From Anaerolineae bacterium (GTDB lineage Bacteria; Chloroflexota; Anaerolineae; Caldilineales; Caldilineaceae), in assembly GCA_030432295.1 (NCBI GenBank), contig JAUIHI010000047.1, positions 1-41,343 on the forward strand: a stretch of 41,343 nt of DNA, given 5' to 3'. Of this stretch, positions 32,758 through 36,706 are shown in pieces. The stretch's first letter is position 1. Each line of letters opens with the position of its first letter. The notes below the pieces were generated by a model. The model was not told where the DNA came from, did not search any database, and was given only the letters and a program-made list of their open reading frames with translations. A program made the position numbers and the translations under genes.

Positions 32758-32786
32758 TTGACGAACACCCGCCCCAGTGCTACAAT
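32758..32786 (+). promoter_or_regulatory. Promoter of the cysteine desulfurase gene
   Basis: TTGACG at 32758-32763 and TACAAT at 32781-32786 with 17 bp between predict transcription from about 32793. Since the upstream ATGs at 32758-region and 32785 lie inside the promoter, they cannot be the translation start, which supports GTG 32827. Confidence 0.7.
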
Positions 32787-32826
32787 GCGGCTATCTGTGA
32801 TGCAAGCCATTCCCAAGGAAACTAGC

Positions 32827-34005
32827 GTGACCCGTACCCGACCGGCCATCTATCTGGACCATTCGGCCACCACACCCCTGGCTGACGAAGCCCTGGCCGC
32901 GATGCAGCCCTATTTCGCCGAATTCTATGGCAACCCGTCCAGCATTCACTGGGCAGGCCGCCGCAGCCGCACGGGGCTGGACCAGGCCCGGCGCACCGTG
33001 GCGGGGATTCTGGGCGCAAAGCCCGGCGAAATTGTCTTCACCGCCAGCGGCACAGAGAGCGACAATGCAGCTCTGCGCGGGATTGCCCTGGCCAGGCGCA
33101 AACAGAGCGGGACCAACCGCATCGTCGTCAGCCCGGTGGAGCACGCGGCCATCCAACGCACGGCCGAGGATTTGCGCGACAACTACGGCTTTGAACTCAC
33201 ACTTTTGCCAGTGGATGGGGACGGACTGGTCGCCCCGGCGGATGTGGCCGCTGCCCTGGGCGAGAACCCGGCGGCAGATGTGGCGGTGGTCAGCGTTCTC
33301 TACGCCAACAACGAAGTGGGGACGATCCAGCCCATCGCCCAAATCGGCGCTGTGTGCAAAGCCGCGGGTGTGCCCTTCCACACCGACGCGGTGCAGGCAG
33401 CGGGCAAACTGTCGCTGAATGTCAACGCCCTGGGGGTGGACAGCCTAAGTCTGAGCGGGCACAAATTTTACGGGCCAAAGGGCGCGGGGATTCTCTATCT
33501 GCGCCAGGGCACGCCCTATCAGCCGACAATCACCGGGGGCAGCCAGGAAGGGAGCCGCCGGGCCGCCACAGAGAATGTGCCGTCGATTGTGGGGCTGGCC
33601 GCCGCGCTGGCACTGGCCGACGCCGAGCGGGAAAGTGAGATGGACCGGCTGCAACTCCTGCGCGACCGGCTCATCGGCGGGATTCTGGAAAATGTGGAAG
33701 GCATCCGATTGACCGGATCACCCGTTCAGCGGTTGCCCAGTCACGCCAGTTTTGTGCTGGAAGGGCTGGAAGCCGAGGGTGTTCTTATCGGGCTGGATAT
33801 GGCGGGGATCGCGGCCAGCAGCGGCAGCGCCTGCTCCAACGCATCCCAGCGGCCCAGCCACGTGCTGGAAGCGATGGGTGTCTCCCCAGCCGATCTCTAC
33901 GGCGGCCTGCGCCTGACGCTGGGCCGCAGCAATACGCCGGAACAGATGGATTTTGTCGTGGAACAACTGGCCCGCATTGTCGCCAATATCCGCAGGGCAG
34001 GATAG
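32827..34005 (+). CDS. Cysteine desulfurase (IscS/NifS family)
   Basis: This 392-residue PLP enzyme removes sulfur from cysteine to supply Fe-S clusters, thiolated tRNA or the molybdenum-cofactor sulfur. The N-terminal AIYLDHSATTPL, the HAAIQRTAE stretch, the PLP lysine Lys213 (SGHKFYGPKGAG) and the persulfide loop with Cys336 (SSGSACSNAS) are all present. It is a class I (IscS/NifS-type) enzyme by the long loop and SGSAC motif. GTG 32827 is preceded by AAGGAA six bases away and follows the promoter correctly. It stands apart from the Nfu and A-type genes, so it may serve several pathways. IscS and NifS cannot be separated here. Confidence 0.94.
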   Translation: MTRTRPAIYLDHSATTPLADEALAAMQPYFAEFYGNPSSIHWAGRRSRTGLDQARRTVAGILGAKPGEIVFTASGTESDNAALRGIALARRKQSGTNRIVVSPVEHAAIQRTAEDLRDNYGFELTLLPVDGDGLVAPADVAAALGENPAADVAVVSVLYANNEVGTIQPIAQIGAVCKAAGVPFHTDAVQAAGKLSLNVNALGVDSLSLSGHKFYGPKGAGILYLRQGTPYQPTITGGSQEGSRRAATENVPSIVGLAAALALADAERESEMDRLQLLRDRLIGGILENVEGIRLTGSPVQRLPSHASFVLEGLEAEGVLIGLDMAGIAASSGSACSNASQRPSHVLEAMGVSPADLYGGLRLTLGRSNTPEQMDFVVEQLARIVANIRRAG

Positions 34006-36119: not shown

Positions 36120-36173
36120 TTTCAGGTCCTTCTGGTAGTGGGTAGTGCGTATACCAGAAGGACCTGAAATTTT
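36120..36173 (+). terminator. Hairpin terminator between the MEMO and peroxiredoxin genes
   Basis: TTTCAGGTCCTTCTGGTA (36120-36137) pairs perfectly with 36152-36169 over an 18-bp stem and 14-nt loop, followed by TTTT. It separates two convergent genes and ends the MEMO-family transcript. Confidence 0.85.
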
Positions 36174-36195: not shown

Positions 36196-36654
36196 TTACA
36201 GAGCGGCCAGGGCAGCCTCTGGGCTGGCATCGGCTTTTACGTTATACGATACATCTACCAGCACACCCTTTTCGTCGATTACAAAGTGGCTGCGGACGAT
36301 GCCCATATAGGTCTTGCCAAAGTTGGTCTTTTCCTGCCACGTCCCATACATCTCGGAAATCGTGTGGTCTGCATCCACCAGCAGTGTGAAGGGCAGGTCG
36401 TACTTTTCGCGGAACTTCTGGTGGCTTTCTTGCCCGTCTGGACTGACGCCGAGGACAATGGCATTCTTTTCGGTGATCGCAGCGTAGCTCTCGCGGAACC
36501 CGCGAGCCTGGATCGTTCAGCCAGGGGTGTCATCTTTCGGATAGAAATAGAGGACGACTTTCTGGCCCTGATAGTCGGACAACTTCACGCTGTCACCGCT
36601 ATCAGTCATTGCTGCAAAGTCAGGCGCGGCTACGCCAGTTGTTAACTGTGCCAT
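36196..36654 (-). CDS. Selenocysteine-containing PrxQ/BCP peroxiredoxin
   Basis: This thioredoxin-fold peroxidase has 152 residues if the in-frame TGA at 36519-36517 is read as selenocysteine (residue 46). The frame is open on both sides of it with no indel: MAQLTTGVAAPDF... YFYPKDDTPG, then U, then TIQARGFRESYAAITEKNAI and GVSPDGQESHQKFREKYDLP to the stop at 36196. The TGA falls exactly where PrxQ has its peroxidatic cysteine (TPGCT). The usual resolving cysteine five residues on is Arg, so it would be a 1-Sec type enzyme. A hairpin CTCGCGG-GTT-CCGCGAG begins 10 nt after the TGA, with the apical G 18 nt downstream, as expected of a bacterial SECIS. AAGGAG precedes ATG 36654. Confidence 0.9.
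36487..36519 (-). promoter_or_regulatory. UGA codon and SECIS-like hairpin of the selenoprotein
   Basis: On the minus strand TGA (36519-36517) is followed by 10 nt and a perfect 7-bp stem CTCGCGG/CCGCGAG with loop GTT. Bacterial SECIS elements have a stem-loop directly after the UGA, with a G at the start of a small apical loop about 16-37 nt away; this one fits at 18 nt. Confidence 0.8.
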
Positions 36655-36706
36655 GCAAAACTCCTTGAAACTGTGGTTCTGATAAATGAACTGCCAATCA
36701 GCCAGT

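Follow-up and report, generated by a model that had tools for sequence, protein, structure and literature searches.

The 41,343-nucleotide stretch of DNA analysed here (the window), from a member of the Caldilineaceae, contains a gene that almost certainly encodes a peroxiredoxin Q (PrxQ) with a single selenocysteine (Sec), in which UGA codon 46 would be decoded by SelB and Sec-tRNA by way of a hairpin downstream of the codon. The frame is full-length and has one internal stop, a TGA (Table 1). A first-pass annotation had described it as a peroxiredoxin frame split by one TGA exactly at the catalytic cysteine and had expected automated callers to break it up. Both points hold: the TGA lies in the context DDTPG-U-T at the column of the peroxidatic cysteine of PrxQ homologues, and a mechanical ORF caller fragments the gene, the pieces in the same frame including 36774-36517 and 36378-36196.

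With the TGA read as a residue, the product matched AhpC-TSA with 138.3 bits and PRK09437, the model for thioredoxin-dependent thiol peroxidase, with 147.5 bits (cut-off 140). The curated cut-offs of NF053650 (PerredPrxQDein; 137.7 bits, cut-off 260), NF040737 (PrxU model; 55.8 bits, cut-off 270) and NF045827 (Thiol peroxidase Prx-SUH; 22.6 bits, cut-off 298) were not reached. The TxxU motif, T43-P-G-U46, was read directly from the sequence. P39, T43, G45 and R121 are invariant in 14 aligned rows, and both the PrxQ/BCP motif and the match to the family model were found; Arg121 is presumably the active-site Arg. The solved structures closest in sequence are PDB 5enu, 3drn and 5iph, all PrxQ/BCP-type cysteine enzymes, and an AlphaFold2 model built from 14 relatives with Cys at position 46 had a mean pLDDT of 96.2. 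Glycine before the peroxidatic cysteine is given as a mark of PrxQ in PMC5302317. The source genome contained no second PrxQ match at E <= 1e-10, and the enzyme therefore probably holds the PrxQ role in this genome alone. A perfect 18-bp inverted repeat (36120-36137 / 36152-36169, 14-nt spacer) occurs just downstream, between prxQ and a convergent Memo-like gene, and was not flagged by a terminator scan. A cysteine desulfurase-like aminotransferase class-V protein is encoded nearby at 32758-34005 (+).

Table 1. Positions of prxQ and its sequence features within the window.
Feature	Positions	Strand	Description	Support
Shine-Dalgarno-like AAGGAG	36661..36666	-	6 nt before ATG	AGGAG kept upstream in 7/7 genus genomes
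prxQ, predicted selenoprotein gene	36196..36654	-	152 codons + TAA, one in-frame TGA	AhpC-TSA and PRK09437 matches
Codon 43	36526..36528	-	Active-site Thr of PxxxTxxU	T43 invariant, 14/14 rows (6 from genus)
TGA codon 46	36517..36519	-	Peroxidatic position (PxxxTxxU), predicted to be read as Sec	7/7 genus genomes
Bacterial SECIS-type hairpin	36490..36506	-	Arms 36506-36500 and 36496-36490, loop GTT 36499-36497	
Codon 51 (CGC, Arg)	36502..36504	-	Replaces the resolving cysteine at +5	Inside the hairpin 5' arm
Codon 121	36292..36294	-	Conserved Arg	R121 invariant, 14/14 rows

A PrxQ match was obtained in 45 of 46 genomes of the family. In all seven genus genomes searched, the best match carried one TGA. 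Among the 39 genomes of other genera, the best match was free of stops in 38, and the 39th gave no PrxQ match. The TGA occupies the identical codon in all seven genus genes (L028 has Ala for Pro44). The 38 family homologues outside the genus carry Cys at the TGA column, and Cys occupies this column in all 87 stop-free homologues that were classified. Three named records hold the same gene: Caldilineaceae bacterium Ww71 (L091) and Chloroflexi bacterium NC_groundwater_1080 (L097), on the same contigs as the genus members L027 and L029, respectively, and Caldilineaceae bacterium ACE_CHL8 (L140), which is near L025. Four family genomes also contain a distant second peroxiredoxin-like frame (32-33% identical) with one in-frame TGA (G037:C2:176043-176372, G036:C143:4940-5248, G028:C651:4586-4921 and G033:C226:11745-12101), possibly a further selenoprotein.

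A scan of genome_contigs for YPxDxTPG-TGA-T returned at least 117 stretches. Among the matches listed, 114 of 117 were PrxQ-like in the TGA frame and 111 stayed open for at least 60 codons past the TGA; the three stretches without similarity and three more with fewer than 60 codons open after the TGA were left out before counting. The 111 frames, again among the matches listed, spanned 16 named phyla, with 12 rows lacking a phylum assignment and three belonging to the genus itself. When genomes were taken from 40 of the 117 listed loci, all 40 gave a PrxQ match. Together with the seven genus sequences and L214 and L216, these 111 frames constitute a set of 120 Sec sequences, in which L091 and L097 duplicate contigs of two of the seven and L140 is near a third; L215 (G061, one TGA in the match), unclassified by motif, was omitted. 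The baseline of Cys sequences comprised 87 from the Chloroflexota, namely 38 from the family and 49 from matches in 158 genomes of the phylum (the 29 best-scoring and 20 hand-picked further down). This baseline is biased and confined to one phylum, whereas the Sec sequences come from many phyla among the matches listed.

The perfect 7-bp hairpin with a GTT loop that had been proposed to start 10 nt after the TGA was found there (CTCGCGG-GTT-CCGCGAG; 17 nt from TGA to loop). According to PMC13188914, the bSECIS model specifies a loop of 3-9 nt that has G at one of its first two positions, and 16-37 nt between UGA and loop; the hairpin agrees with it in its 3-nt loop, its leading G and its 17-nt distance. 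Folding energy was not exceptional relative to dinucleotide shuffles, 41 of 200 being as good or better for a 45-nt stretch (z -0.83) and 50 of 200 for a 63-nt stretch (z -0.59). Folding of a single sequence against shuffles does not single out the hairpin, and it is comparison across genomes that sets it beyond chance. Rfam SECIS_1 had no match in the source genome and none in 14 control genomes either, and is thus uninformative. The hairpin codons GCT CGC GGG TTC CGC GAG (50-55) are identical across the seven genus genomes. The genus has 93 degenerate codons with an invariant amino acid, 24 of which are invariant as codons; these include all six hairpin codons, compared to 18 of the 87 others (hypergeometric P = 1.8e-4). 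No other stretch of the gene has more than 2 consecutive invariant codons, and synonymous divergence within the genus is 0 in codons 50-55 versus 0.53 in codons 1-45 and 0.61 in codons 56-151. Because the hairpin is invariant within the genus, there is no covariation to examine.

All seven stem pairs are kept in 7/7 Sec genes of the genus, and between 3 and 6 are kept in the 38 family Cys homologues, none of which retains all seven. Seven pairs in the same register occurred in 5 of 110 Sec sequences outside the genus. Hairpins were scored by rules built on the published bSECIS model, with codon-resampled sequences encoding the same protein as controls; such resampling attained the genus score in 0.9-3.3% of trials per sequence. 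The mean score was 14.0 for the 120 Sec sequences versus 10.1 for their controls, and 9.6 versus 9.5 for the 87 Cys sequences, with stems of at least 6 pairs in 55% and 9%, respectively. As a detector the score is weak: 41/120 Sec and 2/87 Cys sequences beat their own controls at <5%. Judged from the codons of the genus, the constraint on the hairpin indicates selection at the RNA level.

The source contig (C53 of genome G000) belongs to an assembly of 6.72 Mb in 61 contigs that is listed as 100% complete. The full Sec system that had been expected elsewhere in the genome was searched for and is present, each component scoring over its curated cut-off: selA at C16:235442-236788 (577.9 bits), selB at C16:89399-91312 (main match 311.4 bits, rising to 333.3 bits with the neighbouring match in frame), selD at C47:64444-65436 (334.9 bits) and tRNA-Sec at C47:11617-11711 (66.9 bits; anticodon TCA by ARAGORN). 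These genes are located on contigs C16 and C47 and prxQ on C53, in an assembly with an estimated contamination of 2.3%. Within the family, tRNA-Sec was found in 41/46 genomes (7/7 in the genus) and selA in 43/46 (6/7 in the genus), the exception in the genus being G028, which is 86% complete. Judging by these genes, most of the family decodes Sec, even in genera with a Cys PrxQ. The selD gene of the source genome (L020) has an in-frame TGA of its own, in the context CAG-TGA-ASK, and SelD is a second candidate selenoprotein, independent of PrxQ.

The codon-level constraint shows that the RNA matters but not which residue enters, and would also suit a UGA that is read through as another amino acid, by a suppressor or a changed code, or that acts as a regulated stop, the hairpin then being a readthrough signal without Sec. 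However, a tRNA-Sec with anticodon TCA is present along with selA, selB and selD, and mechanically called ORFs of at least 300 codons in the window end in TGA (11/28) as well as in TAG and TAA. Moreover, with Cys in every one of the stop-free classified homologues, only Sec would be expected to keep the chemistry. We regard readthrough without Sec as very unlikely and favour decoding of codon 46 as Sec.

The frame carries a stop codon and a plain ORF caller yields fragments, which would also be expected of a pseudogene, a prxQ inactivated by a nonsense mutation with its remainder decaying. In contrast, the identical TGA stands in all seven genus genomes, at a pairwise DNA identity of 75-86%, the frame has no further stop, and the Sec machinery in the genome is complete. 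Conservation continues past the TGA, as the first-pass annotation had stated: dN/dS across the seven genus sequences (Nei-Gojobori) was 0.13 for residues 1-45 and 0.087 for residues 56-151, indicating purifying selection after the TGA. By this measure the part following the TGA is at least as constrained as the part preceding it. Decayed copies in sister strains had been named as evidence that would speak against a selenoprotein; the genus genomes keep an intact frame, the same TGA and the same hairpin. Inactivation is accordingly rated as even less probable than readthrough without Sec. An error of sequencing or assembly, with TGC or TGT read as TGA, is the least credible explanation. The seven genomes of the genus, draft assemblies with contig numbers from 61 to about 970, agree with one another and with the named record L140 (L091 and L097, from the same contigs as L027 and L029, add nothing), and a change at +5 and the hairpin accompany the TGA.

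In a midpoint-rooted FastTree of 207 sequences, the genus formed one clade (99) within a 27-row clade containing 17 Cys rows (86). A quick IQ-TREE of 63 chosen rows (the 7 genus sequences, 19/38 family Cys, 12 phylum Cys and 25/108 other Sec) likewise recovered the genus clade (99); the starred group that contains it (97) has 39 rows, namely 31 Cys rows, the 7 genus rows and the Sec protein L110 of a KSB1 bacterium. The 63-row tree has long rows and weak deep forks, and nothing beyond the genus clade and its position among Cys rows is taken from it here. The simplest reading of these trees, whose root was not inferred, would be a switch from Cys to Sec near the base of the genus; an old Sec form that was lost many times appears less likely. 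L110 is 57.9% identical to the PrxQ described here and has Sec at the same place, but it retains Cys at +5 and stands apart from the genus clade in the 63-row tree. The KSB1 genome (G320) encodes this Sec-PrxQ on C329 and has another PrxQ match on C776, whose frame contains no stop.

The first-pass annotation had also noted Arg in place of the usual resolving cysteine and had proposed a 1-Sec peroxidase. The +5 residue is Arg in 7/7 genus proteins and Cys in 87/87 classified Cys homologues. The seven genus proteins contain no cysteine at all and therefore have no resolving cysteine elsewhere, which strengthens the proposed 1-Sec reading. A +5 Cys is common but not required in PrxQ; according to PMC5302317, four PrxQ structures differ in where the resolving Cys lies. 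In the alignment, the cysteine enzyme PDB 5enu shows Leu at this position, so that lack of the Cys is no peculiarity of Sec forms. Codon 51 is TGC in 26 and TGT in 12 of the 38 family Cys relatives and CGC in the Sec gene, where CGC provides a C-G pair in the stem and TGC would give U-G. Residue 55, Asp in the relatives shown, is Glu (GAG) in the Sec protein, and the last G of this codon pairs with the C of codon 50 and closes the stem.

Across the wider set, +5 Cys was present in 47/111 Sec frames among the matches listed, 20/111 having Arg (3 of these 20 from the genus), compared to 87/87 Cys frames from a narrower range of phyla. A paired test of Sec against loss of +5 Cys on the 207-row FastTree, with only four pairs on starred branches, was not significant (median p 0.25); on average 3.1 pairs went in the same direction, 0 in the opposite direction and 0.9 showed no difference. 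Among 66 Sec sequences whose best stem had at least 6 pairs, the +5 codon overlapped the 5' arm in 31/45 without Cys and 9/21 with Cys, a trend uncorrected for relatedness. We tentatively suggest that acquisition of the SECIS element rewrote the neighbourhood of the active site and so contributed to the conversion of a two-cysteine peroxidase to one with a single Sec and no cysteine, and that loss of the resolving Cys may accompany Cys-to-Sec switches of PrxQ generally. The needs of the hairpin might thus have helped to cause the change in the protein, although we rate this as somewhat less likely than not.

A Sec-containing peroxiredoxin of Eubacterium acidaminophilum was reportedly described by Sohling and colleagues in 2001, and we take it to be the protein named PrxU. 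Like the protein studied here, it is a peroxiredoxin with Sec. The NCBIfam model named PrxU, NF040737, which may describe the 2001 protein, gave our protein 55.8 bits against 270. Sec peroxiredoxins with TxxU are an established family, known for two decades, and the present gene is less new than first supposed. Published surveys list 43 Sec peroxiredoxins from the Sargasso Sea, assigned to COG1225 and carrying TxxU (PMC1088965), 12 Prx selenoproteins with apparently five Cys-to-Sec conversions in 2006 (PMC1794560) and 91 Prx selenoproteins in 78 organisms in 2016 (PMC5029168). The family also appears in review tables (PMC9312934, PMC13188914), the former citing Sohling et al. 2001 (Eubacterium acidaminophilum) for it. 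The gene described here shares with the COG1225/Bcp selenoproteins the family, the TxxU motif, the peroxidatic Sec and an in-frame UGA with a SECIS hairpin, but differs, by comparison with published descriptions rather than sequences, in its Caldilineaceae-type genus, the Arg at the resolving position and the lack of cysteine. Compared to Cys-type PrxQ/BCP (5enu, 3drn, 5iph; PRK09437), which comprise its closest solved relatives and the family model that it matched over the cut-off, the present protein has Sec for the peroxidatic Cys and has lost the Cys that its family relatives carry at +5. Caldilinea and Chloroflexi are not mentioned in the main texts of PMC5029168 and PMC5330540, nor Chloroflexota or PrxQ in PMC13188914, and a search closed to most subscription papers returned no publication joining Caldilineaceae with a selenoprotein. 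New are this member of the family, the switch at the level of a genus and the loss of the resolving cysteine that goes with it.

We propose that SelB and Sec-tRNA would decode UGA codon 46 under the direction of the coding-sequence hairpin that starts 10 nt downstream, with selA, selD and tRNA-Sec providing the charged tRNA. The selenolate of Sec46, positioned by Thr43 and Arg121, would then attack the peroxide and yield a selenenic acid. Because the protein has neither a resolving nor any other cysteine, its reduction would fall to an outside thiol, which may be thioredoxin, a glutaredoxin-like protein or a small thiol. The ancestor would have been an ordinary two-cysteine PrxQ. Near the base of the genus, its peroxidatic TGC or TGT would have changed to TGA and its +5 cysteine codon to CGC, a fit to the SECIS stem.

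The Sec reading corrects a gene that automated pipelines would break up or miss. The genus provides a Cys-to-Sec switch for which close Cys relatives are available for comparison, and the Sec and stop-free PrxQ of the KSB1 genome are a natural pair for comparing both forms. With the resolving Cys lost as well, the genus also offers a way to examine whether the protein was shaped by the chemistry of selenium or by what the RNA signal requires.
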